From Serinicoccus kebangsaanensis (GTDB taxonomy: Bacteria; Actinomycetota; Actinomycetes; Actinomycetales; Dermatophilaceae): 64,000 nt of DNA. Positions 5,435-63,549 of this stretch are shown in pieces (within the stretch, counting starts at the first letter, position 1; each line of letters starts with the position of its first letter). The stretch is taken from positions 1 through 64,000 of the forward strand of contig NZ_VSLG01000002.1 of NCBI RefSeq assembly GCF_008919445.1, read 5' to 3'. The position numbers and the translations under genes are program-made. A model generated the notes under the pieces. The model worked only from the letters and a program-made list of their open reading frames with translations, was not told the DNA's origin and did not search any database.

Positions 5435-6685
5435 TCAGCGGTCGGCGTCGGCCGACCAGGCGAAGAGCTCGCCGTCCGCGCCGGACACCGTGACGGAGGC
5501 CTCCGGTGCGAGGTCGAGGGTCACGCGGATCCACTGGTCCTGCCCCGCCGAGGTGTAGGTGATCGACTCGTTGCTCCGGTCGTCCACGGTGGTGCGCGCC
5601 CGGGCCAGCCAGGCGTGCTGCCGGCGCAGCCCGATCAGCCCCCGGTGCAGCGACTCCATCCAGGCCCCGTCGTCACCGAGGTCCGCCGGGCTCGTCGGCA
5701 GCTCGGGACGGATCTCGTCGTCACCACCCAGCCGCTCCTCCTTGAGCCCGCGGTATGCCCGCTCGTCGCCGTAGTAGATCGAGGGCATGCCCCCGACGGT
5801 CATGAGCACGGCCAGCGCCAGGACCGCGCCGGGGTCACCGACCCGGGTCGCGATCCGGGTCACGTCGTGGTTGCCCACGAAGGTCTGCGGCACGAAGCTC
5901 TGGAGCAGTGCGTCGTGGCGCTCCAGGGCGTGCGCGAGCTCCCAGAAGTTGGTGTCCAGGATGGAGCTCCAGACCGCCTTCCACAGCTCGTACTGGGTGA
6001 CGGTGTCCAGCCCGCTCGCCGCCACGATCGCGGCGTAGTCGCCGTGGATGACCTCCCCGACGAAGAGCGCGTCCGGGAACTCCTCGCGCACCCGCGCGGT
6101 GATCCGGGACCACGCCTCCTCCGGCACGGCATACGCGACGTCCAGCCGCCAGCCCGCGACCCCGCGCCGGAGCCAGCGGAGCATCACCTCGACCACCAGG
6201 TCCTCGACCCGCTGGTCGGTGTGGTCCAGCTCGACCAGGCCCTCGTGCCCCTCCCAGCTCGCGGCCCCGCCGTCGGCGGACCGCTTGAGCATGCCGGCCC
6301 GCTCCTCGTCCCGCGTCAGCGGATGGTCGGCGGCGACGTGGTTGAAGACGCCGTCCAGCAGCACCGACAGGCCGCGCTCGCGACACTCCTCGAGCAGCCG
6401 GTCCAGGTCGGCCTCGTCACCGAGGCGCGGATCGATGCAGGAGTGGTCCAGCGTGTCGTAGCCGTGGCTGCGCGAGGCGAAGACCGGACCCAGCAGCAGC
6501 CCGGAGCACCCGAGCTCGACCAGGTGGTCGAGCCAGTCGGTCAGCCGGGGCAGCCGGTGCTCCACCGCGGCGTCGGCCACCTCGCCCTCGAGGACGTCGG
6601 GTGCCCCCAGGGCGCGCAGCGGATAGACGTGCCACCAGATCGCGTGGTCGAGCAGACGGGCGGCGCCGGGCGCGGTGGTGGCCAT
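5435..6685 (-). CDS. GH13 alpha-amylase family glycoside hydrolase
   Basis: A 416-residue TIM-barrel enzyme acting on alpha-glucans. The four conserved GH13 regions are present: DGVFNH, GWRLDVAY with the nucleophile Asp, FVGEVIH with the acid/base Glu, and FVGNHDV with the transition-state His-Asp. No signal peptide, so it acts in the cytoplasm, probably on maltodextrins or glycogen fragments. It is compact, lacking obvious starch-binding modules. The start is the ATG at 6685 beside the N-terminal phrase MATTAPGA; the upstream membrane-protein frame runs across it, which is odd and discussed there. Confidence 0.9.
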   Translation of the reverse strand: MATTAPGAARLLDHAIWWHVYPLRALGAPDVLEGEVADAAVEHRLPRLTDWLDHLVELGCSGLLLGPVFASRSHGYDTLDHSCIDPRLGDEADLDRLLEECRERGLSVLLDGVFNHVAADHPLTRDEERAGMLKRSADGGAASWEGHEGLVELDHTDQRVEDLVVEVMLRWLRRGVAGWRLDVAYAVPEEAWSRITARVREEFPDALFVGEVIHGDYAAIVAASGLDTVTQYELWKAVWSSILDTNFWELAHALERHDALLQSFVPQTFVGNHDVTRIATRVGDPGAVLALAVLMTVGGMPSIYYGDERAYRGLKEERLGGDDEIRPELPTSPADLGDDGAWMESLHRGLIGLRRQHAWLARARTTVDDRSNESITYTSAGQDQWIRVTLDLAPEASVTVSGADGELFAWSADADR

Positions 6686-7457
6686 GACCCCATCGTCTCA
6701 GTCCTCGGCCCCGGGCGGGCAGCACCAGTGCCAGGGTGAGCGCCGTGGCACCGGCGGCCAGCCCCACCGAGGTGACCAGGGGGAGATGGCCGGCGAGCGC
6801 GGCGAAGCAGGTGCAGAAGACGAAGTAGCCGGGCAGGGTGCGCAGCAGCGAGGTCGCCACCGCGTCGGCTCCCGGCGACCCCTGGTGCCGCCAGACCAGC
6901 AGCGCGACGAAGGTCGAGACCGCCGGGAAGGCGCCCAGCGCGGCGCCCATCCGCGGGCCGAGCAGCCCGGCCGCGGCGACCAGACCGGCCACGGCGAGCC
7001 AACCCACCAGGGCCCGCGCCGCGAGGCTGCCCACGCTCAGCGGCGCACCGGCTCCGATCGAGGTCGTGCCGCGGCGTCGGGCGACCCACCACCGCGCACC
7101 GACCATCACGGCCGCACCGGCCACCAGGGCGGCGACCGCCGGCGCCCGTGCGACCAACCAGGCCGTGCCGGCATACGCCAGGCAGGCGGCGAGGAAGGCC
7201 CACGCCGCCGACCACCGACGGCTCGTCGCGAGGAAGACCAGCGGCGCGGCACACTGCGCGACCACGTGCGACCCGAGGCTGCCGGCCAGCACCCCGGCGG
7301 CGACGGTCCCGGACTCACCCCCGATCACCGTCACGGCGAGGACCGGACTGAGCGGCAGGGCGGTGACCATGCCGGCGGCGGCCGGGCCGAAGCGTCGCTC
7401 CATGGCGGCGGCGAGCAGGATGACGAGGGGGACGAGGAACAGCGAGGGGTGGGGCAC
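6417..7457 (-). CDS. Membrane protein, likely frameshifted at its 3' end
   Basis: The first ~255 residues form a polytopic membrane protein with 8-9 hydrophobic segments starting at once (PSLFLVPLVILLAAAM). No family recognised. The frame then continues for about 90 residues over the amylase gene in another frame, giving an Arg-rich sequence typical of out-of-frame reading. Removing one C in the CCCGGGG run near 6708-6714 would instead give the ending LPAGAED with a TGA at about 6697, just before the amylase ATG. I therefore suspect an indel, real or in the assembly, and a true end near 6697. Divergent from the LysR gene. Confidence 0.62.
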   Translation of the reverse strand: MPHPSLFLVPLVILLAAAMERRFGPAAAGMVTALPLSPVLAVTVIGGESGTVAAGVLAGSLGSHVVAQCAAPLVFLATSRRWSAAWAFLAACLAYAGTAWLVARAPAVAALVAGAAVMVGARWWVARRRGTTSIGAGAPLSVGSLAARALVGWLAVAGLVAAAGLLGPRMGAALGAFPAVSTFVALLVWRHQGSPGADAVATSLLRTLPGYFVFCTCFAALAGHLPLVTSVGLAAGATALTLALVLPARGRGLRRWGHGHHRARRRPSARPRDLVARLSAARPGGTRRPRGRGGRRRGGAPAAPADRLARPPGRARVLRAAAGSGLRLAQPRLRHAGPLLHRSAPR

Positions 7458-7477
7458 CTCTCCAGCGTGACGCGGCT

Positions 7478-7522: not shown

Positions 7523-7532
7523 AATCCGATGT

Positions 7533-9413: not shown

Positions 9414-10394
9414 TCAGGGTGCCAGCCCGCGACCACCGGCGACCGCCGGGACGACGCACCGGAAGCCGAGGTTGCCACTGGCGGAGTCCGGGTCGTTGCT
9501 CGTCCTCGCGGCCACCCGATAGCGGTTGCAGTAGGAGTCGTGGCACAGGTAGGAACCGCCACGCATCACCCGCGCGGACCCGCTGCGGGGACCCTGCGGG
9601 TCCTGGGTCGGCGCGGCGGTATGCGCGGTGCCCCACCAGTCGGAGCACCACTCCCACACGTTGCCGGCGACGTCGAACAGGCCGTAGCCGTTGGGCGGGA
9701 AGCTGCCGACCGGCGCGGTCCCGGCATACCCGTCCTCCGCCGTGTTGCGCACGGGGAACCTGCCCTGCCAGATGTTGCACCTGTGCTCGCCTCCGACCAG
9801 CAGGTCCTCACCCCAGGCGTAGCGTGCGCCCACCAGGCCGCCGCGCGCGGCGCACTCCCACTCGGCCTCCGTCGGGAGCCGGCCGCCGACCCAGGCGCAG
9901 AAGGCCCGGGCGTCGTCGTGGTCGACGTGGACGACGGGGTGGTCGGGGCGCTCGGAGATGTCGCTGCCGGGCCCTTCGGGCGCCGACCAGACGGCACCGT
10001 CCACCCGGCACCACCAGGGCGCGCCCGGAGGTCGTTCGCCGCCGCGCAGGCGTCCCGGCAGGAACCCCGCGAAGACGAAGGACCACCCGAAGCGCTCCGC
10101 GCCGGTGCGGTGGCCCGTGGCCTCGACGAAGGCGGCGAACTGGGCGTTGGTCACCGCGGTCCTGCCGATCGAGAACGGGCTGAGCCGCACCTCGCGGAGC
10201 GGCCCCTCCCCGTCCCCGGGGTTGGCGTCCGGGTCCTCGGACCCCATCTGGAAGTTCCCCCCGTCCAGGTGCACCAGGTCCAGCAGGCCGGCCGGGGCCG
10301 GCGACCCCTCCGCCGCCCCTCGGTCACGGTCGATGACCGGGCGTTCACCCTGGGGCGCGCAGCACCGCGCAGCAGGCTCTGGGGCGGGGTCCAT
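9414..10394 (-). CDS. Formylglycine-generating enzyme (SUMF1/FGE family)
   Basis: Converts the active-site Cys of type I sulfatases into formylglycine with O2 and copper. At 326 residues it has the complete FGE-sulfatase domain: GGNFQMGSEDPDANPGDGEG, RLPTEAEWECAARGG, GNVWEWCSDWW and RGGSYLCHDSYCNRYR. Cys284 and Cys289 are the copper-binding active pair of the aerobic enzyme. The N-terminal CCAP motif is common in bacterial FGEs and supports the internal ATG at 10394 over one 23 codons earlier. No sulfatase is encoded in this window, so the substrate must be elsewhere. Downstream of it, 39 bp away, is the aminotransferase-like gene. Confidence 0.85.
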   Translation of the reverse strand: MDPAPEPAARCCAPQGERPVIDRDRGAAEGSPAPAGLLDLVHLDGGNFQMGSEDPDANPGDGEGPLREVRLSPFSIGRTAVTNAQFAAFVEATGHRTGAERFGWSFVFAGFLPGRLRGGERPPGAPWWCRVDGAVWSAPEGPGSDISERPDHPVVHVDHDDARAFCAWVGGRLPTEAEWECAARGGLVGARYAWGEDLLVGGEHRCNIWQGRFPVRNTAEDGYAGTAPVGSFPPNGYGLFDVAGNVWEWCSDWWGTAHTAAPTQDPQGPRSGSARVMRGGSYLCHDSYCNRYRVAARTSNDPDSASGNLGFRCVVPAVAGGRGLAP

Positions 10395-11191: not shown

Positions 11192-11656
11192 TCAGACCGG
11201 TGCGGTGAGGCCGCCCGCCTGCTCGGCGTCCAGCGAGGACGCCACCCGCCGCAGCTGCAGCTGCAGCTCACGCACCTCGTCGGCGGACAGGCCCAGGACC
11301 TCCAGCAGACGGCACTGCACCCGGTCGCTGTCCTCGAAGATCGCCTGGCCCGCGGCGGTCAGCTCCAGCACCCACGACCTGCCGTCCCCGGGCGCCGGGC
11401 CACGCCTGATGACGTCGCTCCCCTCGAGCCGTCGCAGGATCGGGGTGAGGGTGCCATGGTCCAGGTGCAGCAGGCTCGCGAGCTCCTTGATCGACAGCGG
11501 ACCACGACCGCCGAGCACCACCACCACGAGGTACTGCGGATAGGTGAGTCCGTGCCGCTCGAGCAGCGGCCGGTAGCGCCGGGTCATGGCCCGGGAGGCG
11601 GCATACAGGTCGAAGCAGAGCAGCTCCTCCAGGTCCACGCCCGCGGAACGGTTCAC
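11192..11656 (-). CDS. ohrR: OhrR-type redox-sensing MarR regulator
   Basis: A 154-residue MarR-fold repressor of the OhrR subgroup, which senses organic hydroperoxides through a reactive Cys. The diagnostic N-terminus is present: EELLCFDLYAASRAMTRRY with the sensing Cys, then LTYPQYLVVVVL, a helix-turn-helix (SIKELASLLHLDHGTLTPIL) and a wing. The GTG start at 11656, with GGAG upstream, gives the family's usual length; the frame is open further upstream but not convincingly coding. A perfect palindrome lies in the divergent region to the hydrolase gene, which is thus the likely target. Confidence 0.85.
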   Translation of the reverse strand: MNRSAGVDLEELLCFDLYAASRAMTRRYRPLLERHGLTYPQYLVVVVLGGRGPLSIKELASLLHLDHGTLTPILRRLEGSDVIRRGPAPGDGRSWVLELTAAGQAIFEDSDRVQCRLLEVLGLSADEVRELQLQLRRVASSLDAEQAGGLTAPV

Positions 11657-12606: not shown

Positions 12607-13851
12607 TCACCCCGAGCGGCGCAGGCCCCGCGCCAGTGCGGCGGCACCTGCCGCGACGGGCAGCGCCAGCCGGAGCACCAGACGACCCGACGGCGTGGCC
12701 GAGCGCCGGATCCACGACACCGGCTCCAACGAGTCGTTCACCGCGCGGGCGGCATACTCCCGCATCCGCCGCTCATAGGCCGCGACGGCACCGACCACAC
12801 CTGTGCTCGCGCCGGCCCGGCCCAGCTCCTCGACCAGTGCGGCCGCGTCCCGGACCGCGGTCGCGGCGCCCTGCCCGCCGGTCGGGGGCATGGCGTGCAC
12901 CGCGTCACCGATCGCGGTGACGGGACCGGCCGACCACGGCGCGATCCCGGCAGGGTCCGCGGCGAGGAAGCGGAAGCCACCGACCGTGCGCCGGTCCGAC
13001 CAGGTCAGCAGGTCGAGCGTGGCGTCGGCCCAGGACCGCTCCCCGAGGACCTGGGTCACCCGGTCCACCAGGTCCGACGGGGGCACCTCCTTGAGCCGCT
13101 CCGGCAGCAGCCCTTCCGTCCCCAGGAACCCCCAGATCACGACCGGCTCGGTGGTCCGGGCGAGTGATCGGACGCCGACGTGCGCCGGTCGCCCCCGGGG
13201 GTCGTGCAGCGAGGCGAAGAGCCCGGCGCCTGCCGGTCCGACGGCCAGCATCGGGTCCTCCCGGACCAGTGCCTGTGCCCCCTCGGGGAGCGAGGCCCAC
13301 GGAGTGCGTCCGGCGACCCCCACCAGCCCCGTGGGGGTGCTCGTGGGCGACCCGGCCAGCGCGGCCGCCAGCTCGGACCCCGCGCCGTCGGCGAGGACCA
13401 GCAGATCCGCCTCGAGGCTCGTGCCGTCGTCGAGGTCCACCTCGACGAGCTGTCGCACGGTGCGGTGCCCCACGACCCGCAACCCGGTCCGCAGGGCCGA
13501 CCCGAGCCCCTCGGCCAGCACCAGCCGGAGCGTCACGCGGTCGATCTCCACCGAGGTGCCGGGACCCTGGTCGTCCGAGGCGCGTACCAGCAGTCGTCCG
13601 CGGTGGTCACGCACCGCGATCCGGAAGTCCTCCGAGCCCATCGAGGAGCCGAGCAACAGCTCGTGCCGCTCGCCGGGCAGCAGGGTCTCCAGGGCCGCGA
13701 GCGCCGTCGGCCCGAGGTGCAGCTTGTAGCCGCCGGTGCGCGCGAGGTCGACGTCCGGCTCGACCACGGTGACGGCATACCCCCGGCGGAGCAGTCCCTG
13801 GGCCAGCGCGAGCCCGCCGATCCCACCCCCTGCGACGACCACCCGCATCAT
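12607..13851 (-). CDS. FAD-dependent monooxygenase
   Basis: A 414-residue group A flavoprotein monooxygenase (p-hydroxybenzoate hydroxylase fold). The Rossmann GGGIGGLALAQGLLRRG begins at residue 6. The conserved Arg in the DRVTLRLVL stretch follows, and the second FAD motif reads AIGDAVHAMPPTGGQGAATA. Such enzymes hydroxylate aromatics, polyketides or antibiotics with NAD(P)H and O2. Two adjacent ATGs (13851 and 13848) start the family's normal N-terminus; the 40 upstream codons are non-conserved. It converges on the chloroperoxidase gene and is divergent from the YdeI-type gene. The substrate is not predictable. Confidence 0.9.
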   Translation of the reverse strand: MMRVVVAGGGIGGLALAQGLLRRGYAVTVVEPDVDLARTGGYKLHLGPTALAALETLLPGERHELLLGSSMGSEDFRIAVRDHRGRLLVRASDDQGPGTSVEIDRVTLRLVLAEGLGSALRTGLRVVGHRTVRQLVEVDLDDGTSLEADLLVLADGAGSELAAALAGSPTSTPTGLVGVAGRTPWASLPEGAQALVREDPMLAVGPAGAGLFASLHDPRGRPAHVGVRSLARTTEPVVIWGFLGTEGLLPERLKEVPPSDLVDRVTQVLGERSWADATLDLLTWSDRRTVGGFRFLAADPAGIAPWSAGPVTAIGDAVHAMPPTGGQGAATAVRDAAALVEELGRAGASTGVVGAVAAYERRMREYAARAVNDSLEPVSWIRRSATPSGRLVLRLALPVAAGAAALARGLRRSG

Positions 13852-14776: not shown

Positions 14777-15355
14777 GTGACCGAGGACCGGCGGACCCAG
14801 ATCGTCGACGCCGCCCACCGCCTGGTGCAGCGCTCGGGGATCGAGTCCATCAGCGTGCGCAGCGTCGCCCGGGAGGCCGGGATCGGGGCCAGCACCCTGC
14901 GCCACTACTTCCCCACGCAGGCCGACCTCTTCGAGGTCCTCATCGAGCCTGCCGTCGAGCGCATGCTCCCCGACCTGCGGATCCACGACCAACGTGTGGC
15001 ACCACGGCGCCGGCTGACCGAGTGCCTCATGCAGTACTTCCCCGCAGAGTTCCTGCGACCGGACACGGTGTCGCTCTGGTTCGCCTCGTATGCCGTCGCC
15101 GTCGGGCCCACCGCCACCGAGCACGGGACCAGGACCCTGGAGCGGATGGCCCAGGTGTCCCGTGGACGGATCGAGCGGTGGCTGACGCAGGTGGAGGACG
15201 AGGACGCGCTGCTGGTGGACCGCCGCACGGCCATGCTGCAGGTCATGACCGTCCTGGACGGCATCTGCGTGCAGCTCATCACCCCGGGCACGATCTTCAC
15301 GCCCGACGACGTGCGGCCGATGGTGGAGCGTGCGGTCAGCGCCGTGGTGCGCTGA
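14777..15355 (+). CDS. TetR family transcriptional regulator
   Basis: A 192-residue regulator with an N-terminal helix-turn-helix (about residues 5-50: IVDAAHRLVQRSGIESISVR, then VAREAGIGASTLRHYFPTQ) and an all-helical ligand domain. GTG start with GAGGGAGG upstream. It faces the small export gene across the triple dyad, so it most likely represses that gene and itself and is relieved by a small molecule. The C-terminal part resembles the BetI/TetR_C_6 type, but the ligand is unknown. Confidence 0.9.
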   Translation: MTEDRRTQIVDAAHRLVQRSGIESISVRSVAREAGIGASTLRHYFPTQADLFEVLIEPAVERMLPDLRIHDQRVAPRRRLTECLMQYFPAEFLRPDTVSLWFASYAVAVGPTATEHGTRTLERMAQVSRGRIERWLTQVEDEDALLVDRRTAMLQVMTVLDGICVQLITPGTIFTPDDVRPMVERAVSAVVR

Positions 15356-15359: not shown

Positions 15360-16001
15360 CTACGGGAATGCCGGGTATGCCGCCCGCACGGCGTGCACCG
15401 AGGCGGGCGTGGGCGCGGTGGTGCCGGGAGTGGGCTCCGGCTCCCCCGCGACGAGCCGCAACGGCACGACGCCGGTCCAGACGCTGCGCTCGCTCGGGGC
15501 GTCAGCACCCCCCGTGCGGGACTTGAACAACCACGACCCCTCCTCGATGGGCAGCACCAGGCAGGTCGTGGCGGCCACCTCGCGCCGGGTACTCGCCCGG
15601 ATCTCGGTCGTCCGGCCGGGCAGCAGACGGTCGGTCAGGCGCTCCAGACCCTGCCAGGCCTCCTCGCCGCCGATCTCGACGGCCGTGCCGCGCAGCACCG
15701 CGCTGCGGTAGTTCGCCGAGGAGTCGAAGGCGCTCTCGGCCAGCACCAGACCGTCCAGCGCGACGACGGTCAGGGTCAGCGGCGCGCCCGCGACGAGGTG
15801 TCGCAGCGCGCCGGCCCCGGTGGAGCCGTGCAGCAGCACGCGGTCGCCGTCCCGGGCGACCAGGAGCGGCACGGACCACGGCATCCCGTCCACGACCGTG
15901 GACAGCACCCCCACCGGCATGCTGTCGAGGAGCTCGTCCAGGCGCGCCCGGTCCTCGGTGTAGCGGTCGGGCTTGCGGGTCGGGGTCGACAGGTCGGTCA
16001 T
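15360..16001 (-). CDS. Pyridoxamine 5'-phosphate oxidase family protein
   Basis: A 213-residue split-barrel flavin-binding protein of the NimA-like PPOX group. Seen: VGVLSTVVDGMPWSVPLLVA, then RVLLHGSTGAGALRHL, SANYRSAVLRGTAVEI and a C-terminal VWTGVVPLRL. These proteins bind FMN or related cofactors and reduce nitro- or other compounds, or have unknown roles. The ATG at 16001 gives the family N-terminus; one 12 codons upstream is less likely. It converges on the TetR gene with a 4-bp gap and is divergent from the reductase at 16055. Confidence 0.85.
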   Translation of the reverse strand: MTDLSTPTRKPDRYTEDRARLDELLDSMPVGVLSTVVDGMPWSVPLLVARDGDRVLLHGSTGAGALRHLVAGAPLTLTVVALDGLVLAESAFDSSANYRSAVLRGTAVEIGGEEAWQGLERLTDRLLPGRTTEIRASTRREVAATTCLVLPIEEGSWLFKSRTGGADAPSERSVWTGVVPLRLVAGEPEPTPGTTAPTPASVHAVRAAYPAFP

Positions 16002-16630: not shown

Positions 16631-17052
16631 CTGCTGCGGCTCGCGCGCTGCTCCCGGTAGTGGGGGTTGGCCATGATCCCCAGGATGTTGCCGAAGGGGT
16701 CGGCCACCGCGGCGGTGACGAATCCCTCCCCACGCGGGGTCGGCTCCTCGTAGGCGGTCGCACCCAGCTCCAGCAGCCGGGACCACACGGCCTCCAGGTC
16801 GTCGACGGCCCAGTAGGCCACGACGCCACCCTCGGTGCCCTTCGGGCCCGCGAAGCGCCGGTCGACGATGCCGAGCTCGGTCTGGTCGTCACCGATCCGG
16901 AACTCGACGTACTGCGGCGGCTCGGGCGGCTCCGGCATGGCGAAGTAGCTCTCGACCCCCAGCAGCTCGGCATACCAGTCGCGGGCCTGTGCGACGTCGT
17001 CCGCGAAGTAGCTCAGGGTCGCGATCCCGCGCAACGGGCTGGTGGTGGTCAT
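16627..17052 (-). CDS. VOC (glyoxalase/bleomycin-resistance) family protein
   Basis: A 141-residue vicinal-oxygen-chelate protein with two beta-alpha-beta-beta-beta modules: LSYFADDVAQARDWYAELLG, then YVEFRIGDDQTELGIVD, and a second half ending TAAVADPFGNILGIMANPHY. The Glu of the metal site family is not in its usual final position, so the activity is uncertain; members include glyoxalases, dioxygenases and drug-binding proteins. GTCCTCC reads as a good ribosome-binding site on the coding strand. Confidence 0.9.
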   Translation of the reverse strand: MTTTSPLRGIATLSYFADDVAQARDWYAELLGVESYFAMPEPPEPPQYVEFRIGDDQTELGIVDRRFAGPKGTEGGVVAYWAVDDLEAVWSRLLELGATAYEEPTPRGEGFVTAAVADPFGNILGIMANPHYREQRASRSS

Positions 17053-17109: not shown

Positions 17110-17790
17110 TCACCCCGAGCGGACCGACCAGCCGGTGTCCGTCTCGCGCAGCACCAGGTCCGCGGGGTCCGACCGGTCCCGGACCGTGCTGGCGTTGACC
17201 TCGTCCACCCGCGCCACCCACGCCCGGGCCCGCTCTGCCCCCTTGCCCCACGCCTCGTGCCGGGAGACCAGGCGGGCCTGCCGCACCCCGGCATCCACCG
17301 CGACCCACCAGACCGCGTCCAGCTGGGCCCGCGCCGCCCGCCACCGGTCGTCCCGGAGCAGCAGGTAGTTGCCCTCGGTGAGCACCAGGCGCGCGGTCGG
17401 CGGGATGTGCAGAGCGGCCGCGAGCGGCTGCTCCAGGTCGCGCTCGAAGCCCGGGGCGTAGACCGGCCCCGACCCCGGCGCGGGGCGGCGCACCCGGTGC
17501 AGCAGCGCGGCATACCCCTCGACGTCGAAGGTCTCCGGGGCACCCTTGCGGTCGGTCAGACCCAGCCGCGCCAGCTGTGCATCGGCCAGGTGGAAGCCGT
17601 CCATCGGCAGGTGCGCGGCCCACCCCTGCCCGTGGACGGCGGTGAGCTCGCCCAGCAGCAGCCGCACCAGGGTGGACTTCCCCGCCCCCGGCTCCCCGGC
17701 AATCCCCAGCACCGCCCGGCCACCCTCCGCCCCGTCCACCAGCGCCTCGGCGAGCGTGCAGAGCTGCCGGAGGCCGGGCATACCGGTCAC
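17110..17790 (-). CDS. Nucleoside/nucleotide kinase family protein
   Basis: A 226-residue P-loop kinase of the uridine kinase/pantothenate kinase superfamily. The Walker A GIAGEPGAGKST is at about 29-40, the substrate-loop Asp in HLPMDGFHLAD follows, and the LID-like region is near ERDLEQPLA. The family phosphorylates small sugars, nucleosides or cofactors in the cytoplasm; the substrate here is unknown. Its GTG start overlaps the TGA of the upstream methyltransferase (GTGA), so the two are coupled. Confidence 0.85.
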   Translation of the reverse strand: MTGMPGLRQLCTLAEALVDGAEGGRAVLGIAGEPGAGKSTLVRLLLGELTAVHGQGWAAHLPMDGFHLADAQLARLGLTDRKGAPETFDVEGYAALLHRVRRPAPGSGPVYAPGFERDLEQPLAAALHIPPTARLVLTEGNYLLLRDDRWRAARAQLDAVWWVAVDAGVRQARLVSRHEAWGKGAERARAWVARVDEVNASTVRDRSDPADLVLRETDTGWSVRSG

Positions 17791-34008: not shown

Positions 34009-34261
34009 CGTCTCGTCTCCCGATGGATGGATGGGGCGCTGGTCCGACCGTCGACCGGCCGGTGACTCATCGGTCCGGGTGCGACGGCGGACGTGCACGA
34101 CGCCTGCTCCCCCACGGTATGCCCGTGCTCAGGTCCGCGGTGCACGTCGGGCCGCACGTGGGGACGGCGAATGACACCGGTGTAGTTCTCCACAGGCTGT
34201 GCACATCCTGGGGACGACGCGGTGGCTCGTCGGTGGGCACGTGGGCCGGAGCCCCGCGAGC

Positions 34262-45513: not shown

Positions 45514-45565
45514 GCCTCCAGTGTTGGCGGTGCCGGGGCATACGAGAAATGCACAACTCTTGATC

Positions 45566-49470: not shown

Positions 49471-49494
49471 CCGGCATACCCGAAGGAGGACCCG

Positions 49495-51836: not shown

Positions 51837-51880
51837 GACCTGGTGGCAGGACCGTCGGTTCCCTCACGCATGATGGGCGT

Positions 51881-52363
51881 ATGCCGCAGCCGCAGGACCC
51901 GGTGCGGGTCGTGGAGATCGGGATCGCGCCCGGCAGCCGCCTGCCCGTGCGGACCCTCGATCAGGTCGACGCCGAGGCCGGGGTGGGCCTGGTCGGCGAC
52001 CGCTACCACGGCAGCCGGCACCGGCACGTGACGATCCAGTCCCGCAGCGACCTCGACGACGCCGCCGCCGACCTGGGCCGGCCGGTCCCCGCCACCGGCA
52101 CCCGACGGAACGTCACGGTCTCCCACGGTTCGGTGCCGACCCGGCCTGGCACCCTGCTGCGGATCGGGGAGGTCGAGCTGCAGGTCGTCCGGCTCGCAGC
52201 GCCCTGCCGGCTGCTCGACGACTGGCTCGGCCCGGGGGCGATGCGGGCCCTGCACGGGCGGGGCGGAGCAGTGTGCCGGCTGCTCGGCTCCGGGACGATC
52301 CGGGTGGGCCACGAGCTGCAGGTCGGCGACGTCGCCCCGGCTCCGTCCGGTCCCCGGACCTAG
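51881..52363 (+). CDS. MOSC domain protein
   Basis: A 160-residue MOSC (molybdenum cofactor sulfurase C-terminal) protein: GVGLVGDRYHGSRHRHVTIQ, then TGTRRNVTVSHGSVPTRPG, LLRIGEVELQVVRLAAPCRL with the conserved Cys. Small MOSC proteins, such as YiiM, act in moco-dependent reduction or sulfur carriage, for example reduction of N-hydroxylated compounds. The ATG at 51881 gives the family start. It is 44 bp after the reductase and may be read from the same transcript. It converges on a VOC gene. Confidence 0.85.
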   Translation: MPQPQDPVRVVEIGIAPGSRLPVRTLDQVDAEAGVGLVGDRYHGSRHRHVTIQSRSDLDDAAADLGRPVPATGTRRNVTVSHGSVPTRPGTLLRIGEVELQVVRLAAPCRLLDDWLGPGAMRALHGRGGAVCRLLGSGTIRVGHELQVGDVAPAPSGPRT

Positions 52364-52971: not shown

Positions 52972-53459
52972 GCACCCTGCACGACTTCGAGGCCGAGACG
53001 CTCACCGGTGGACGACAGGACCTGGGCGACTACGCAGGCCGGGCGGTGCTGGTGGTCAACACGGCCAGCCAGTGCGGCTTCACGCCGCAGCTGGCCGGGT
53101 TGGAGGAGCTGCACGCCGAGCTCGCCGACGCCGGACTGGTCGTCCTCGGTTTCCCGTGCAACCAGTTCGGCAACCAGGAGCCCGGCGACGCGGAGCAGAT
53201 CGGCGACTTCTGCCAGCGCAACTACGGCGTGAGCTTCCCGATGTTCGCCAAGGTCGACGTCAACGGGTCGGGTGCGCACCCGCCCTTCGCGTGGCTCAAA
53301 TCGCAGAAGAAGGGGTTGCTCGGGGGCCGGATCAAGTGGAACTTCACCAAGTTCCTCATCGGTCCCGACGGGCAGGTGGTGGCGCGGTATGCCCCGACCA
53401 CCGAGCCGTCCGCCATCCGGGAGGACATCGAGCAGGTGCTGGCCGGGCGCACCACCTGA
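52968..53459 (+). CDS. Glutathione peroxidase family protein
   Basis: A 163-residue thioredoxin-fold peroxidase that reduces peroxides. All catalytic residues are present: Cys in NTASQCGFTPQ (about 36), Gln in GFPCNQFGNQEP and the Trp-Asn pair in IKWNFTKFLI. It is a Cys enzyme, not selenocysteine, and bacterial members usually use thioredoxin or mycothiol systems rather than glutathione. GTG start overlapping a short upstream frame. No ribosome-binding site of its own is obvious, which fits coupling. Confidence 0.94.
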   Translation: MSTLHDFEAETLTGGRQDLGDYAGRAVLVVNTASQCGFTPQLAGLEELHAELADAGLVVLGFPCNQFGNQEPGDAEQIGDFCQRNYGVSFPMFAKVDVNGSGAHPPFAWLKSQKKGLLGGRIKWNFTKFLIGPDGQVVARYAPTTEPSAIREDIEQVLAGRTT

Positions 53460-53848: not shown

Positions 53849-53914
53849 CTCGTACGCAGCAGTTGTTCTTCGGTCGTGATGCATCACGGCATACGAACAA
53901 GAACTGCGTACGAG
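53849..53914. terminator. 66-bp imperfect palindrome between convergent genes
   Basis: The stretch is symmetric about 53881/53882. Outer arms CTCGTACGCAG/CTGCGTACGAG (11 bp), middle TTGTTC/GAACAA (6 bp) and a centre CGTGATGCATCACG (perfect 14-bp palindrome) are separated by symmetric 3- and 6-nt internal loops. It lies between the convergent antitoxin-like and alarmone synthetase genes and could end both transcripts; there is no U-run. It is less GC-rich than its surroundings. Confidence 0.8.
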
Positions 53915-53928: not shown

Positions 53929-54921
53929 TCAGCCCAGCCGCGCCAACCGCGCCGTCAGCAGGTCCTGGCGGTGCGCGTTGCCGTGCAGCCGGACATACCG
54001 CTCCCCGAAGACCATGAGCAGGGAGTCGTCCAGCCGCCGGACCGCACCCGGCGGGTAGCGGTAGGCCATGCGTGCCTCGATGGCCTCGACGTCCACCTCC
54101 CGCAGCACCTCGCGCAGTTCGGACAACGAGGTGATGCCCAGCTCGAGGAGCAGACCGCTGATCCAGGCGTAGTGGTCGGTCCTGGACCACCCCGCGTCGG
54201 CGAACTGGCCGGCCAGGAAGGCCGCGAGGTCGGTCGGGCTGATCCGCGGATCGTCGTCGACGGCGTCGGCCGGGGAGGTCAGCTCCTCCCGGTGCCGGTC
54301 CCGGATCGCGGAGAACTGCTGGTCGGCCAGCTCGAGCAGGCCCGCGGCCAGGGTGAACCGGCGGTCGAAGTCGTGCGCGTGCTCCTCAGGGACGGACCCC
54401 TTGTAGCGGATGTCGTGCTCGAACTCCGCCCACGCGTGCTGCAGCACGGTGCGGATCTGGACCGACGCGGGACGCTCGGGCGGGATCCCGGCCTCCGCGG
54501 CCCGCTCCTCGTCCAGCGCCACCAGCAGGTGCCGGCTGGAGTAGCCGAACCGTCCCTCTTCGGCGGTCTCCCGGCCCATGTCGCGGTCGTCGCGCACGTC
54601 CAGCTGGGCGGCCAGCAGCTGGGCCACCGCGTCGACATCGGCCAGCACGTAGGTCACCACCCGCACACCGATCTGGTCGGTGATGTCGGTCAGCGGCTCG
54701 GGGTGGGCCAGCCGCCCGCCGTCGGTGCGCCGGGCCGCCTTGCCCGCGAAGGACTCCACGCTCTTGGTGCGTCCGGTGACCGCGAGATAGTTGATGCCGG
54801 CGTCATCGAGGAGCTGGGTGACCAGGGCGACGTAGGCGTCGGTGGCGGCGCGCAGCGCGTCGTGCCCCGCGGCATACCTCGTCACCGCCCTGCGGATCCG
54901 GGTCGACTGCGTGCTGGCCAT
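53929..54921 (-). CDS. Small alarmone synthetase (RelA/SpoT domain)
   Basis: A 330-residue (p)ppGpp synthetase-type protein without hydrolase, TGS or ACT domains. The synthetase block is visible: GRTKSVESFAGKAARR (ATP-binding Arg/Lys), LTDITDQIGVRVVTYV (metal Asp), GYSSRHLLVAL and VQIRTVLQHAWAEFEHDIRY. The C-terminal 120 residues are helical and of unknown role. It would make stringent-response alarmone from GTP/GDP and ATP in response to an unidentified stress. The ATG at 54921 is preferred to a 17-codon extension. Divergent from a RibD-C gene by about 50 bp. Confidence 0.9.
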   Translation of the reverse strand: MASTQSTRIRRAVTRYAAGHDALRAATDAYVALVTQLLDDAGINYLAVTGRTKSVESFAGKAARRTDGGRLAHPEPLTDITDQIGVRVVTYVLADVDAVAQLLAAQLDVRDDRDMGRETAEEGRFGYSSRHLLVALDEERAAEAGIPPERPASVQIRTVLQHAWAEFEHDIRYKGSVPEEHAHDFDRRFTLAAGLLELADQQFSAIRDRHREELTSPADAVDDDPRISPTDLAAFLAGQFADAGWSRTDHYAWISGLLLELGITSLSELREVLREVDVEAIEARMAYRYPPGAVRRLDDSLLMVFGERYVRLHGNAHRQDLLTARLARLG

Positions 54922-54970: not shown

Positions 54971-55531
54971 ATGGGACGCCTCGTGTATGCCGGGATCGGG
55001 TCGCTGGACGGTTACGTCGCCGACGAGCAGGGCGGCTTCGACTGGAGCGCACCGGACGCGGAGGTCCACGCCTATCTCAACGAGCGCGACCGCCGGGTCA
55101 CCGCCGAGCTCTACGGCCGCCGCCTCTACGAGGTGATGAAGGTCTGGGAGACCTACGGCACCGGGCCGGACGCGTCCCCGGAGGAGCAGCAGTACGGCGA
55201 GCAGTGGCGCGGCCGGCCCAAGGTGGTCTACTCGCGCACGCTGACCGGGGTGGACACCGCGCACACCCGGCTGGAGCGCGAGGTGGACCCGGCACAGCTG
55301 CGGGCCTACGTCGACGCGGCGGAGGGTGAGGTGTCCATCGGCGGCCCGGAGCTGGCCGCGCACGCGCTGCGGGCCGGGATCGTCGACGCGGTCGAGTACT
55401 ACGCCAGCCCGGTGGTCCTGGGCTCCGGCACACCATGGCTGCCCGCCGGGCTGCGGCTCGACCTGCGCCTGGTGGAGCTGCACCGCTTCGGCAACGGCGT
55501 CGTGCACCTGGCCTACGAGCTCCGAGGGTGA
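54971..55531 (+). CDS. Dihydrofolate reductase/RibD-C family protein
   Basis: A 186-residue RibD-C/DHFR-like protein: RLVYAGIGSLDGYVADEQGG, RVTAELYGRRLYEVMKVWET, VSIGGPELAAHALRAGIVDA and a C-terminal LRLVELHRFGNGVVHLAYEL. As with its paralogue at 16055, the family probably reduces an NADPH-dependent substrate that is unknown. An ATG three codons upstream is possible. The 174 bp after it (55532-55705) hold no gene I can support but should contain the promoter of the YCII-sigma pair. Confidence 0.9.
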   Translation: MGRLVYAGIGSLDGYVADEQGGFDWSAPDAEVHAYLNERDRRVTAELYGRRLYEVMKVWETYGTGPDASPEEQQYGEQWRGRPKVVYSRTLTGVDTAHTRLEREVDPAQLRAYVDAAEGEVSIGGPELAAHALRAGIVDAVEYYASPVVLGSGTPWLPAGLRLDLRLVELHRFGNGVVHLAYELRG

Positions 55532-56135: not shown

Positions 56136-57278
56136 GTGGAGGACCTGCTGCGGCAGCTCGCCCCCCGGGTGCTGGGCGTCCTCGTCCGGCGCGGAGCAGA
56201 CTTCGCGTCGGCCGAGGACGCCGTCCAGGAGGCGTTGATAGAGGCGGTCGCCCGCTGGCCGGAGGGTATGCCGTCGGACCCGCAGGCGTGGCTGGTCACC
56301 GTCGCCTGGCGCAGGTGGCTGGACCACGTGCGCTCGGAGTCGGCGCGTCACCGGCGCGAGCAGGCCGACCTGGACGAACCGCCGCCCGGGCCGACCGAGA
56401 GCCGGGACGACACGCTCCACCTGCTCTTCCTGTGCTGCCACCCGGCCCTGACCCCGTCCTCGGCGGTGGCGCTGACGCTGCGCGCCGTCGGCGGGCTCAC
56501 CACCCGTCAGATCGCCGAGGCATACCTGGTGCCGGAGACCACGATGGGGCAACGGATCAGCCGGGCCAAGCGCACCGTGGCCGACGAGGGTCTGGGCGGG
56601 ACGGGCGACCTCGGGCGGGTGCTGCGGGTGCTCTACCTGATCTTCAACGAGGGCTACCAGGGGGAGGTCGACCTCGCGGCCGAGGCGATCCGGCTGGCCC
56701 GTGAGCTGGCCGACCGGGCCGACGACCCGGAGGCCGCCGGGTTGCTGGCTCTCATGCTGCTGCACCACGCGCGTCGGCCGTCCCGGTTCGGCACCGACGG
56801 CTCTCTGGTGACGCTCGCCGAGCAGGACCGCACCCGGTGGGACACAGGCGCGATCGCCGAGGGGATCGACATCCTGCACCGGGCGCTCGCCGCCGACCGG
56901 CTCGGGGAGTTCCAGGCGCAGGCCGCGATCGCCGCGCTGCACGCGGACGCCCAGAGCGCCGACGAGACCGACTGGCCGCAGATCGTCGGCTGGTACGACG
57001 AGCTGCTGGCCCTCACCGACAGCCCGGTCGTGGCCCTCAACCGCGCGGTGGCGGTGGGCGAGGCCGATGGTGCGCAGGCAGGGCTGCGGGCGCTCGCGGA
57101 GGTGCCCGACGGCATACCTCGCCGGCACGCGGCGCACGCCTTCCTGCGGGAGCGGGCGGGAGAGCCCGACCGCGCCGCGGAGCTGTATGCCGAGGCCGCG
57201 GCCCGCGCGAGCAGCACCGCCGAGCGCGACCACCTGACCCGGCAGGCGGCCCGGCTCAGGTCTGGGCAGCCCCGGTGA
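56136..57278 (+). CDS. ECF42-type RNA polymerase sigma factor
   Basis: A 380-residue extracytoplasmic-function sigma factor. The sigma-2 region is at about 5-70 (FASAEDAVQEALIEAVARWP), sigma-4 follows at about 110-160 (LTPSSAVALTLRAVGGLTTR, then QIAEAYLVPETTMGQRISRA) and a long C-terminal helical, TPR/SnoaL-unrelated extension (160-380) contains VLYLIFNEGY and the ALNRAVAVGEADG segment. That extension defines ECF42, which replaces an anti-sigma factor. GTG start; it is co-transcribed with the DGPF gene. The last 23 bp overlap the convergent gene. Confidence 0.94.
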   Translation: MEDLLRQLAPRVLGVLVRRGADFASAEDAVQEALIEAVARWPEGMPSDPQAWLVTVAWRRWLDHVRSESARHRREQADLDEPPPGPTESRDDTLHLLFLCCHPALTPSSAVALTLRAVGGLTTRQIAEAYLVPETTMGQRISRAKRTVADEGLGGTGDLGRVLRVLYLIFNEGYQGEVDLAAEAIRLARELADRADDPEAAGLLALMLLHHARRPSRFGTDGSLVTLAEQDRTRWDTGAIAEGIDILHRALAADRLGEFQAQAAIAALHADAQSADETDWPQIVGWYDELLALTDSPVVALNRAVAVGEADGAQAGLRALAEVPDGIPRRHAAHAFLRERAGEPDRAAELYAEAAARASSTAERDHLTRQAARLRSGQPR

Positions 57279-59010: not shown

Positions 59011-59126
59011 CTGCCGAGGGTATGCCGGTGGCTCGCCGCCCGCACCCGGGTTGTCGGACGGCGGGGCGCCCGGGGTCGGGTAGCGTCTGCCCAGCCAGTG
59101 GACGACCGCAGCGGAAGGGGAGGCGC

Positions 59127-60239
59127 ATGATCGACGTCATGCTTGCCGGCGGCATCTCGATGGCCGTCGCGCTGCTGTGCACGCCGGCCTTCATCCGCTT
59201 CCTGGTGCGCCGTCGCTACGGCCAGTTCATCCGCGACGACCTCACCCACCACCACGTGAAGCGGGGCAAGCCCACCATGGGTGGGGCGGTGATCATCGGG
59301 GCGACGCTGCTCGGCTACTTCGGCTCGCACGCGGTGCTGCTCGTGCTCGGGGCCACCGGCTGGCTGGACGTGAGCGCCAGCCCGATCTCGCTGAGCGCGA
59401 TGCTCGTGCTCTTCCTGCTGGCCGGGCTCGGGCTGATCGGCTTCTTCGACGACTTCACCAAGATCAGCAAGGAGCGCAGCCTGGGCCTGACCTCGCGGCA
59501 GAAGCTCGTGGGTCAGACGCTGGTGACCGTGGTCTTCGCGCTGGCCGCGCTGCTCGTGACCGACGACCAGGGCAGGTCAGCGGCGTCCACGGCCGTCTCC
59601 TTCGTCCGCGACACCCCGCTCGACCTGGCCTTCGCCGGACCGGTCCTGGGGGTTGTGCTCTTCCTGCTCTGGTCCAACCTGCTCATCACCGGCGCCTCCA
59701 ACGGCGTGAACATCACCGACGGCCTCGACGGACTGGCGACCGGGGCGTCGACGATGGTGTTCGGGGCATACACCGTGATTGCGATGTGGCAGGCCGCGCA
59801 GAGCTGTGAGATCTCGCCGGTGGCCAACTGCTACCCCGTCCGGGACGCACTCGACCTCGCCGTCGTCGCCGCGGCGATCTCCGGCGCCTGCGCCGGCTTC
59901 CTGTGGTGGAACGCCGCGCCTGCCGCGATCATCATGGGCGACACCGGGTCGTTGTCGCTCGGCGCAGCCCTGGCCGGGATGGCGATCCTCACCCAGACCC
60001 AGCTGCTGCTGGTCGTGCTGGGCGGGCTCTTCGTCATCATCACCGCCTCGGTCATCATCCAGGTGATCAGCTTCAAGCTGACCGGCCGGCGGGTCTTCCG
60101 GATGGCGCCCCTGCACCACCACTTCGAGCTGCTCGGCTGGGCCGAGATCACCATCGTCATCCGCTTCTGGATCATCGCCGGGATCTGCGCGGCCGCCGGA
60201 CTGGGCCTGTTCTACGCCGAGTGGCTCGCCAACCTGTAG
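59127..60239 (+). CDS. mraY: Phospho-N-acetylmuramoyl-pentapeptide-transferase (MraY)
   Basis: A 370-residue ten-helix membrane enzyme making lipid I from UDP-MurNAc-pentapeptide and undecaprenyl phosphate on the inner face of the membrane. Key segments: HHVKRGKPTMGGAVII, IGFFDDFTKISKERSLGLTS (the DD pair), SNGVNITDGLDGLATG, MGDTGSLSLGA and the PLHHHFELLGWAE loop. It is complete. Remarkably, it stands alone: no other dcw or wall gene is beside it. GGAAGGGGAGGC precedes the ATG. Confidence 0.95.
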   Translation: MIDVMLAGGISMAVALLCTPAFIRFLVRRRYGQFIRDDLTHHHVKRGKPTMGGAVIIGATLLGYFGSHAVLLVLGATGWLDVSASPISLSAMLVLFLLAGLGLIGFFDDFTKISKERSLGLTSRQKLVGQTLVTVVFALAALLVTDDQGRSAASTAVSFVRDTPLDLAFAGPVLGVVLFLLWSNLLITGASNGVNITDGLDGLATGASTMVFGAYTVIAMWQAAQSCEISPVANCYPVRDALDLAVVAAAISGACAGFLWWNAAPAAIIMGDTGSLSLGAALAGMAILTQTQLLLVVLGGLFVIITASVIIQVISFKLTGRRVFRMAPLHHHFELLGWAEITIVIRFWIIAGICAAAGLGLFYAEWLANL

Positions 60240-60599: not shown

Positions 60600-60618
60600 G
60601 CAGACCGCGAGACCTGCC

Positions 60619-61847: not shown

Positions 61848-61888
61848 GGGGCCAGCCTGCGTCCGGGGTCGACCCTCGGCTCCCTCCC

Positions 61889-61903
61889 GCTGCTCAGAGC
61901 AGC
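61889..61903. promoter_or_regulatory. Palindrome upstream of clpP pair
   Basis: GCTGCTCAGAGCAGC is a perfect 15-bp dyad (GCTGCTC, A, GAGCAGC) 42 bp before the first clpP start, with AGCAGCG repeated just beyond. Candidate site for the PopR-like regulator encoded at the far end of the unit. It could also be the terminator of the gene to its right being read the other way; the dyad lies in the 79-bp gap between the two minus-strand genes. Confidence 0.45.
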
Positions 61904-61926
61904 GCTGCCCGGAGCAGCGTGCGAGG

Positions 61927-63549
61927 TCAGCCGGTCCGCACCGCCCGGAGCACCACGTCGTCGACGTGGTGGGTCGACGCGGCTCCGGCCGGGCGGGGTC
62001 GGGTCTGGTGGAGCTCGACCGTCCACCCGTCCTGGGCGGCGAGTGCGGTCGCGATCTCCTCGACGCCGACGTAGGCCTCGGGGTCCCACATCCGGGTCTG
62101 CTCGGCGGGGTCGACCGGCTCGCGCAGCGGGGTCAGGTCGTGGCTGACCACGAGCAGCGTCCCGCCGGGGGCGACCGCGCCCAGCAGGTTGCCCAGGCCC
62201 CGGCCCTCCGGGGTGCGGAGGAACGAGCCGTACTGCAGCGAGACCAGGTCGTAGGTCCGGCCGTCGAAGGCACCGGGTGCGTTGGCGTCCGTGCGCAGCA
62301 GCGTGACCGGCAGGCCCCGGGCCTGTGCCGCGGCACCGACGTGCCCCAGGGCGTTGCCCGAGATGTCGGAGGCGGTCACCTCCCACCCCTGCTCGGCGAG
62401 CCAGAGCACGTCGCCGCCCTCGCCGGCGCCGACGTCGAGCGCCCGGCCGGGCGGCATACCGGTCACCTGGGCGACCAGGGTGCCGTTCGGGTTGCCGCTC
62501 CACATGCGGGCCTCGCCGGCGTAGCGGTGGTCCCAGTCGCCCTCCTCGCCGGACGGGCGCTGCTGCGCGCGGACGTCCTCATCGGCCAGGCTGAAGGAGA
62601 TCATGGCGCCGATCCGGCTGCCGTGCGCCGCGGACGGGAGCACCTGCAGCGAGGGGTCGGTGACGTTGCCGGCGGCATACACCCCGGGGACCGCGGTCTG
62701 GCCCGTCATCGGGTCCACCTCCAGCACGTCGCCCATGCCGCTGGCGTGCGGGGTGGCCTCCAGGCCGAGCGAGGCGAGAGCGCCGAGGCGGGCGTGGAAG
62801 CGGGTGCCGACCAGCACCGAGTCGGCCTCGAGGGTGGAGCCGTCGGCGAGCTCCACGCCGGTCACCGCGCCGTCCGGACCGGTCGTGACCCGGCGCACCG
62901 CCGTGCGCACGACGGGCACGCCGGCGCCCTCCAGTCCGCTCAGGGCCGCCTCGGCGTGGTCGTCCAGCCCGTCGACGTCGTGCAGGACGACGGTCAGCCG
63001 GTCGGTGAGGTGGCGCAGCAGGGGGCTGGGGTGCAGCCCCATCGGGTGGGTGACGATCTGGACCAGACGCTGGTCGCGCACCTCGTAGCCGTGGCAGAAC
63101 GGGCAGTGGATCACGTCCTGCCCCCAGCGCGGCGCGAGCCCCTCGATGTCGGGGAGCTCGTCGACGATCCCGGTGGCGGCGAGCACCCGACGCGCCAGGA
63201 GGGTATGCCCCCCGCTGAGCTCGACCCGGAAGCGCCCGTCGTCGCCGGCGCGGACGGCCAGCGCACGCCCGGTGAGCACCTCACCGCCGTAGCTGCGCAC
63301 CTCCTCGCGGCCCACGGCCACGAGCTCCGAGGGCGCGGCGCCCTCCCGCCCGAGGTAGCCGTGCATGTGCGCCGCGGGGGCGTTGCGGGGCGTGCCGTCG
63401 TCGACGACGATGACGGTGCGCCGCTGCCGGGCGATCTGCAGGGCCCCGGCCAGGCCGGCGGCGGAGCCACCGATCACCGCCACGTCGCAGTGGCGCTCGA
63501 CAGGGGGTGGGGCGGCGTGGTCGTGGGAGTGGGCGTGCTCAGCGGTCAT
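61927..63549 (-). CDS. Thioredoxin reductase-like/SAM methyltransferase fusion
   Basis: A 540-residue bifunctional protein. Residues 15-325 form an NAD(P)/FAD-dependent reductase of the thioredoxin reductase fold (VIGGSAAGLAGALQIARQRR, CPFCHGYEV with the redox Cys pair, GVYAAGNVTDP). Residues 335-540 form a class I methyltransferase (GRALDVGAGEGGDVLWLAEQ, VTASDISGNALGHVG). The N-terminus is His-rich (HAHSHDHAA), suggesting metal binding. This fusion recurs in actinobacteria with no known reaction. Divergent from an XRE regulator 77 bp away. Confidence 0.9.
   Translation of the reverse strand: MTAEHAHSHDHAAPPPVERHCDVAVIGGSAAGLAGALQIARQRRTVIVVDDGTPRNAPAAHMHGYLGREGAAPSELVAVGREEVRSYGGEVLTGRALAVRAGDDGRFRVELSGGHTLLARRVLAATGIVDELPDIEGLAPRWGQDVIHCPFCHGYEVRDQRLVQIVTHPMGLHPSPLLRHLTDRLTVVLHDVDGLDDHAEAALSGLEGAGVPVVRTAVRRVTTGPDGAVTGVELADGSTLEADSVLVGTRFHARLGALASLGLEATPHASGMGDVLEVDPMTGQTAVPGVYAAGNVTDPSLQVLPSAAHGSRIGAMISFSLADEDVRAQQRPSGEEGDWDHRYAGEARMWSGNPNGTLVAQVTGMPPGRALDVGAGEGGDVLWLAEQGWEVTASDISGNALGHVGAAAQARGLPVTLLRTDANAPGAFDGRTYDLVSLQYGSFLRTPEGRGLGNLLGAVAPGGTLLVVSHDLTPLREPVDPAEQTRMWDPEAYVGVEEIATALAAQDGWTVELHQTRPRPAGAASTHHVDDVVLRAVRTG

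Follow-up and report, generated by a model that had tools for sequence, protein, structure and literature searches.

The window analyzed here is a stretch of 64,000 nt from Serinicoccus kebangsaanensis (contig NZ_VSLG01000002.1, positions 1 to 64,000), and its subject is a short word with the core GTATGCC, dispersed through the window as the octamer GGTATGCC and related forms. By analogy with uptake systems described in other bacteria, we lean toward the view that GTATGCC serves for self-recognition in a system resembling the DNA uptake sequences, with dialects and reading by strand, which would have evolved independently in the Gram-positive Intrasporangiaceae. In the literature surveyed, uptake words are known from two Gram-negative families; if this interpretation is right, a Gram-positive dialect system would mean that such tags evolve repeatedly, would offer a direct handle for transforming non-model actinobacteria, and, with genera of one family differing in their word, would open the origin of uptake specificity to testing. 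Even without an uptake role, an explanation is needed for a word that spans a family, gives way to others in sister genera, is spaced by strand, and nearly saturates a synonymous position.

Abundance of the Word and Synonymous Codon Choice

The window (~73% GC) contains 67 copies of the hexamer GTATGC, where dinucleotide shuffling gave a mean of 8.05, and 42 of the octamer (20 on the forward strand and 22 on the reverse), where 100 such shuffles gave a mean of 0.80 and a maximum of 3. A sequence-only reading of the same DNA had arrived by eye at about 67 hexamers and more than 40 octamers, in agreement with these exact counts; the numbers it expected by chance, 15 and 2, were too high. The best core is GTATGCC, with 61 copies, all within positions 5240-63209, and with a preference for G upstream and for G or C downstream, the best extended forms being GGTATGCC or GTATGCCG. 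Called genes of the window have 37 octamers, against 4.41 after synonymous-codon shuffling (standard deviation 1.77, maximum 10 in 300 shuffles).

The enrichment persists beyond the window. In the whole genome (3.50 Mb in 37 contigs) the octamer occurs 1764 times (894 and 870 by strand) and the reversed word just 10 times (4 and 6). More detailed counts come from a sample of this genome (G000) that combines the window with 15 stretches, each of 20 kb, and four small contigs; a fifth small contig held no legible bases. Octamer density is 0.25–0.85 per kb across the large sampled stretches, none of which is without the word, and the octamer is absent from the four small contigs, which are low in GC and total 19.3 kb. 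In the sampled genes GTATGCC is the most overrepresented 7-mer after codon shuffling (264 copies against 30), as it is in a complete genome of the same genus, G012 (319 against 32). A further count in sampled genes gave 182 copies of the word against 18 after codon shuffling. Correction for codon use thus leaves the enrichment standing both in the window and in the wider gene sample.

Tyrosine in a G_GCC context is encoded by TAT in 128 of 136 cases in the genome of the window and in 129 of 152 in G012. Without a matching neighbor on either side, TAT is used in 54 of 1195 and 30 of 1363 cases. Isoleucine between GGC and C is encoded by ATA in 33 of 72 and 47 of 87 cases; with no matching neighbor the figures fall to 9 of 2120 and 12 of 1965. 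Counted the other way, 129 of the 259 TAT codons and 33 of the 54 ATA codons in sampled genes of the first genome lie inside the word, as do 130 of 199 and 47 of 73 in G012. One synonymous opportunity is nearly saturated with the word, and several independent synonymous positions are pushed toward it. The sequence-only reading had called the word codon-independent, which is correct in that six of six frames are in use, but the cheap frames dominate, Tyr-Ala accounting for 129 of the 265 sites in genes sampled from the window's genome. The Gly-Ile-Pro readings with ATA that it listed were recovered at 18346, 22230, 25114, 35301, and 57111, although the open reading frame (ORF) called at 35301 is doubtful. 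Its larger claim was of selection on the DNA word itself. Selection or drive of this kind is supported by the survival of the enrichment after codon shuffling, by the several synonymous positions involved, by the genome-wide reach of the word, and by its specificity to a family.

The word might instead be a by-product of DNA modification, of a mutational hotspot (for example, C to T in methylated GTACGCC), or of restriction-modification. GTACGCC is indeed strongly depleted (10 copies against 94 expected in the genome of the window, 39 against 106 in G012), but the depletion applies to GTAC generally (206 copies against 700 in the former), and the push toward the word is felt at several positions, at position 4 by a transition (Tyr TAC to TAT) and at position 2 by a transversion (Ile ATC to ATA on the other strand). 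Because the changes hit different positions, one by transition and one by transversion, a single mutational hotspot is insufficient, and the C-to-T version was set aside on these grounds and on the general depletion of GTAC. Restriction sites are normally avoided, whereas this word is enriched, and the strand-specific spacing described below is not something a by-product would predict. We consider an origin of this kind very unlikely.

The scarcity of GTAC is an observation in its own right. It amounts to about threefold after codon shuffling of the sampled genes, with 276 copies against 781 in G012 beside the figures given above, and it spares GTAC before TC (GTACTC, 66 against 79 in the genome of the window and 88 against 102 in G012); depletion with this one exception points to a site that is being avoided. 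Also almost missing after the same correction are runs of seven C or G (3 against 145 and 2 against 158).

Distribution and Dialects in the Family

Among 31 searched genomes of the genus of the window, 30 have 285–2180 octamers. One, G009, stands alone near background with 38, and is a candidate for natural loss. The family was sampled with 149 genomes from 53 genera, drawn from a larger group. By thresholds set after the counts were seen (at least 60 copies per Mb and three times the control for carriers, fewer than 25 per Mb for none), 82 genomes count as carriers, 53 as without the word, and 14 as intermediate, with a carrier in 31 genera. In 18 other families of the order, represented by 183 genomes, the octamer count of a genome never rises above 136. 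In a sample of the phylum (296 genomes, including four of the family and seven others of the order), the highest count outside the family is 408 in 7.5 Mb, with 146 for the reversed control. The word belongs to one family, Intrasporangiaceae. This is its name in NCBI terms, as judged from the genera named among the PyrG matches listed (Nostocoides, Janibacter, Humibacillus, Phycicoccus, Terrabacter, and Knoellia, at 79–83%), and we take it to be the same as Dermatophilaceae in GTDB.

Loci around pyrG have 16 copies of GTATGCCG in Nostocoides jenkinsii, 11 in Terrabacter, 12 in Knoellia, and 24 in a metagenome bin; in 72 lower-ranked pyrG loci (1.36 Mb; none labelled as a family member), GTATGCC occurs 50 times. 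At the Terrabacter locus GGTATGCC occurs only once. Because a count of GGTATGCC misses genera that use GTATGCCG without the leading G, the 82 carriers may be a lower bound, and some genera classed as having none or as intermediate may be carriers. Octamer counts differ widely within genus g26 (347 in G055, 11 in G098, and 1694 in G124), which would suit it to tracing gain or loss of a reader.

Two further words are enriched in the family, in genera that lack the first. The first, GGATGCCG, is one base off GTATGCCG, and has 2099–4480 copies in seven of the 149 genomes and no more than 1336 in the remaining 142. The seven are from three genera (G056; G046 and G093; G074, G108, G131, and G145). 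Five of them have 20–125 copies of GGTATGCC. G074 has 523 and G108 has 508, which makes their genus, g45, one with mixed genomes that hold both the first and the second word. The third word, CGAAGGGG, is present in 1746–3180 copies in 3 of 3 searched genomes of genus g38 and 8 of 8 of genus g39, all with 6–40 copies of GGTATGCC, and in 87–396 copies in the other 138 genomes. Codon shuffling leaves these words enriched as well (228 against 46 in G056, 200 against 36.5 in G131, and 132 against 26 in G152). At pyrG, the Humibacillus locus has 16 copies of GGATGCCG, two Janibacter loci have 9 and 9 of CGAAGGGG, and the counts for Phycicoccus are 0, 4, and 0. Overall, 98 of the 149 family genomes have at least one of the three words at the thresholds used.

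The sequence-only reading had compared the word with DNA uptake sequences, with Chi, and with FtsK-orienting words. Of these, uptake sequences are the best match, above all on account of the dialects in the family: thousands of sites with different words in related genera are most easily reached by biased uptake and recombination. The dialects themselves, like the strand-specific spacing described below, were not noticed in that reading.

Site Conservation and Foreign DNA

Within the genus, in 16 kb aligned at 77% identity, conserved sites number 8 of 13 and 8 of 11. The figure for composition-matched 7-mers is 442 of 1345 (33%), which in this small sample is suggestive of conservation above background. 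Few sites can be aligned between genera. The metagenome bin shares 4 of 14 sites with Knoellia, 3 of 8 with Terrabacter, and 2 of 11 with the genome of the window; in the reverse direction, 4 of 6 Knoellia sites and 3 of 3 Terrabacter sites are present in the bin. Among the few alignable sites, no Humibacillus word was aligned with a GTATGCC of another genus. With so few sites to compare, neither rapid turnover nor strict conservation is established between genera.

The word is nearly absent from low-GC DNA. In 2-kb windows below 66% GC there was one site in 15 windows, compared with 0.47–1.12 per kb in the other GC classes, low GC being a mere stand-in for foreign origin. A phage of Tetrasphaera jenkinsii, TJE1, has 3 cores in 49.2 kb, against 17 in 21.7 kb at the pyrG locus of the host species, although this is a single phage of lower GC for which no chance level was computed.

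Strand Balance and Strand-Specific Spacing

The two strands carry similar numbers of copies overall, 148 and 159 cores in the sampled part of the window's genome and 130 and 142 octamers over 20 stretches of the complete G012 chromosome. Some of these stretches are uneven (3 and 11, for instance), but there are no long runs of one sign, and no sustained skew was seen along the chromosome at this resolution (20 stretches, origin and terminus not located). This bears directly on a role as FtsK-orienting polar sequences (KOPS). KOPS are typically short, frequent, clade-specific words, as this one is, but they need a skew between replichores, and with the strands balanced and long one-sign runs lacking, the comparison is rejected; we give it next to no weight.

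The spacing of neighboring copies depends on strand. It was examined in 364 kb of the window's genome and 400 kb of G012 (764 kb), with expectations from random placement. Not one pair of GTATGCC copies in the same orientation lies within 120 bp, where 15.5 and 22.6 pairs were expected in the two genomes, and at 120–600 bp such pairs are at about half of expectation (31 of 62 and 51 of 90). Oppositely oriented pairs depart little from expectation, at 30 of 39 within 120 bp and 183 of 156 at 120–600 bp. When orientations were permuted with positions fixed, same-orientation pairs within 120 bp averaged 14.9 and never fell below 5 in 2000 trials, against an observed 0. Control 7-mers of similar abundance (80 of 198 eligible) gave same-orientation ratios of at least 0.73, with a median of 1.15. 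On the simplest reading, one site serves a few hundred bases of its own strand, and the two strands are served separately. This exclusion is a quantitative clue to mechanism, and every model must account for it.

The other words behave similarly in some genomes. For GGATGCCG in G056, exclusion is strong, with 3 same-orientation pairs against 15.3 expected and 22 opposite pairs against 17.1; for CGAAGGGG in G152, there are 2 same-orientation pairs against 6.1, and opposite pairs are in excess (14 against 6.4). A further candidate from G054, a genome without the three words, is CGTACG followed by CC or TC, which is enriched (174 and 127 copies in genes). It was not counted as a dialect because its core is palindromic and same-orientation exclusion is lacking (7 against 7.4 for CGTACGCC). 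Candidate words in G040 and G031 were weak and also without exclusion.

The same-orientation exclusion would follow too from a Chi-like reader, one of the chief rivals to the uptake reading, in which AdnAB, or RecBCD where present, would read a genus-specific word on one strand in break repair and recombination. Chi sites of RecBCD and AddAB are short, present in high copy, and read on one strand, as is proposed for the word here, and one-strand reading would explain why only copies on the same strand exclude each other. Chi words also vary among distant species, and RecC was found in 9 of 9 family-sample genomes of the window's genus. Across the family, however, RecC was detected in 28 of 82 carriers (the genome of the window included) and in 29 of 53 non-carriers (Fisher p 0.02, a direction against a Chi role, with species not independent and some genomes incomplete). 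Because RecC went undetected in the other 54 of the 82 carriers, the comparison with RecBCD and Chi made in the sequence-only reading fits poorly, and AdnAB is not known to read Chi. The word also lacks the sustained chromosomal strand bias that many Chi words show, and more than one change of the recognized word would be needed within one family. We judge a Chi-like role improbable.

Much the same can be said of other strand-specific chromosomal processes unrelated to uptake, such as replication priming or restart, strand marking in repair, or binding of a nucleoid protein, to which we assign a similarly low probability. The strand-specific spacing would suit such a role, as would a density that is not raised between genes, but there is no sustained strand bias, the near absence from low-GC DNA is unexpected of a housekeeping word, and thousands of sites with different words in related genera would be hard to achieve without drive. 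HIP1 and other highly iterated words, whose role is unknown, are likewise genome-wide, short, clade-specific, and mainly genic. HIP1 is a palindrome, whereas the word described here is non-palindromic, is replaced by other words in other genera, and is spaced by strand.

A Proposed Uptake-Sequence System

From these patterns we infer that DNA uptake is the process, that drive is the means of upkeep, that all three words share one function, and that they are read by a surface or pilus protein. Competent cells would preferentially take up or use free DNA bearing the word, and recombination of this DNA would keep the word abundant by molecular drive, with codons setting the limit. Genera in which the specificity of the reader changed would have replaced their genomic sites, giving rise to the dialects GTATGCC(G), GGATGCCG, and CGAAGGGG. 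A reader acting on one strand would make a second site on that strand redundant within a few hundred bases and leave the other strand unaffected, and the Tad/Flp pilus would be the likely filament. DNA passes through ComEC as a single strand (PMC12616744), and if the orientation of the word determined the entering strand, same-orientation exclusion would be expected. In its fullest form this would be a strand-choosing uptake code, in which the orientation of the word picks the entering single strand, each strand has its own spaced tags, and at least three replaceable dialects act as barriers to gene exchange between genera; we offer this version only tentatively and think it rather unlikely.

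Competence genes are widespread. ComEC (PF03772) was found in 145 of the 149 family genomes and T2SSF (PF00482) in 146, and the type IVa marker PilM_2 in five. The first two were rejected as correlates of the word because they are near-universal, and type IVa pili because PilM_2 is so rare; since none of the three tracks the word, specificity should sit in another part of the machinery. Transformation of the actinobacterium Micrococcus luteus, which has comEA and comEC, depends on Flp/Tad pili (PMC6370729).

The systems most like this one are the DNA uptake sequences (DUS) of Neisseriaceae and the uptake signal sequences (USS) of Pasteurellaceae. The Neisseriaceae DUS is also a short, strongly overrepresented word with up to thousands of copies, and has dialects within one family, two of them differing by a single base and two of them held together in one genome, that of S. 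muelleri (PMC3630211). The differences are that the words here are unrelated in sequence and belong to a high-GC Gram-positive family with PilM_2 in few genomes, that they show same-orientation exclusion, and that the third, CGAAGGGG, is no one-base variant of the first. The Pasteurellaceae USS, of Hin and Apl types, is likewise present at about one copy per kb on both strands, with words specific to subclades (PMC7811141, PMC12616744, PMC2346458); in H. influenzae it occurs about once per 1,000 bp (PMC7811141) and, as here, mostly inside genes. Known uptake sequences are strand-balanced (PMC1939737, PMC2346458). The copy number and density of the word (1764 octamers in 3.5 Mb) are within the range of known uptake sequences. 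We saw neither the A+T-rich flanking tracts nor the intragenic end bias of the USS. The tendency of DUS and USS to form inverted pairs as terminators, and their noncoding excess, are not found here, with just 2 of 23 close pairs being tight inverted ones (less than 30 bp from start to start).

Several observations weigh against an uptake system. Known uptake sequences are denser outside genes (PMC1939737), the reverse of the word here, with 0.52 per kb between called genes against 0.85 within them in one genome and 0.78 against 0.94 in the other (genes were called by a simple script from GC at codon position 3 rather than a gene finder, so that "between genes" includes missed genes). Uptake by H. 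influenzae is reported to be independent of orientation (PMC1939737), 230 USS pairs lie within 100 bp in a genome of this species (PMC7811141), and the literature surveyed makes no mention of strand-specific spacing of USS or DUS. Neither the same-orientation exclusion nor the sparser occurrence between genes fits known uptake systems. The exclusion is itself uneven among genomes with GGATGCCG, being weak in G131 (15 pairs against 19.4) and absent in G074 (7 against 6.3), and the two words of G074 do not clearly exclude each other (4 against 6.9 expected). Decayed sites should be common, yet among near-miss forms of the core GTATGTC alone is enriched more than twofold in both genomes, and the evidence on site turnover is small. 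None of the three words reaches the thresholds in 51 of the 149 genomes although ComEC is near-universal, no reader was identified (no search for a ComP-like one was made), and ComEC and T2SSF fail to separate genomes with and without the word. A literature search, from which most subscription journals were missing, turned up nothing on transformation or uptake in these organisms, nothing on uptake sequences in this family or in Actinobacteria, and no publication on GGTATGCC, GTATGCCG, GGCATACC, CGGCATAC, or CGAAGGGGG (the lone match was a paper on Ralstonia).

Features of the Window

Positions of the word in the window are listed in Table 1, with cores outside the octamer at the end. The left end, which is lower in GC, has no core word and encodes an MFS transporter, may be acquired DNA. 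The surroundings of the inverted pair of octamers at 19475-19502, which lies inside a called gene, could fold into a stem of 12 bp and a loop of 8 bases.

Table 1. Copies of the word, and the stretch without it, in the 64-kb window.
Feature	Position	Strand	Basis or remark
Stretch without core word	1..5239		GC 0.67-0.69 vs ~0.73 elsewhere; MFS transporter in ORF 725-2515
GGTATGCC	5752..5759	+	word count
GGTATGCC	9723..9730	-	word count
GGTATGCC	13774..13781	-	word count
GGTATGCC	15374..15381	+	word count
GGTATGCC	16969..16976	-	word count
GGTATGCC	17509..17516	-	word count
GGTATGCC	17777..17784	-	word count
GGTATGCC	18346..18353	+	word count; Gly-Ile-Pro, ATA
GGTATGCC, left arm of inverted pair	19475..19482	-	word count
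GGTATGCC, right arm of inverted pair	19495..19502	+	word count
GGTATGCC	22230..22237	+	word count; Gly-Ile-Pro, ATA
GGTATGCC	22606..22613	+	word count
GGTATGCC	22775..22782	-	word count
GGTATGCC	24990..24997	-	word count
GGTATGCC	25114..25121	+	word count; Gly-Ile-Pro, ATA
GGTATGCC	27508..27515	+	word count
GGTATGCC	27671..27678	-	word count
GGTATGCC	28917..28924	+	word count
GGTATGCC	29185..29192	-	word count
GGTATGCC	30028..30035	-	word count
GGTATGCC	32971..32978	-	word count
GGTATGCC	33391..33398	-	word count
GGTATGCC	34116..34123	+	word count
GGTATGCC	35301..35308	+	word count; ORF there doubtful
GGTATGCC	36156..36163	+	word count
GGTATGCC	40293..40300	-	word count
GGTATGCC	40476..40483	-	word count
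GGTATGCC	44155..44162	-	word count
GGTATGCC	44863..44870	-	word count
GGTATGCC	44925..44932	+	word count
GGTATGCC	45871..45878	+	word count
GGTATGCC	46604..46611	+	word count
GGTATGCC	48874..48881	+	word count
GGTATGCC	49473..49480	-	word count
GGTATGCC	53386..53393	+	word count
GGTATGCC	54871..54878	-	word count
GGTATGCC	56265..56272	+	word count
GGTATGCC	56519..56526	-	word count
GGTATGCC	57111..57118	-	word count; Gly-Ile-Pro, ATA
GGTATGCC	59019..59026	+	word count
GGTATGCC	62453..62460	-	word count
GGTATGCC	63202..63209	+	word count
Core GTATGCC, without leading G	5240..5246	-	core search
Core GTATGCC	6128..6134	-	core search
Core GTATGCC	7170..7176	-	core search
Core GTATGCC	11600..11606	-	core search
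Core GTATGCC	12751..12757	-	core search
Core GTATGCC	15088..15094	+	core search
Core GTATGCC	27005..27011	-	core search
Core GTATGCC	28285..28291	-	core search
Core GTATGCC	30720..30726	-	core search
Core GTATGCC	32684..32690	+	core search
Core GTATGCC	35846..35852	-	core search
Core GTATGCC	38069..38075	-	core search
Core GTATGCC	45537..45543	-	core search
Core GTATGCC	51879..51885	+	core search
Core GTATGCC	53888..53894	-	core search
Core GTATGCC	54985..54991	+	core search
Core GTATGCC	57185..57191	+	core search
Core GTATGCC	59765..59771	-	core search
Core GTATGCC	62674..62680	-	core search

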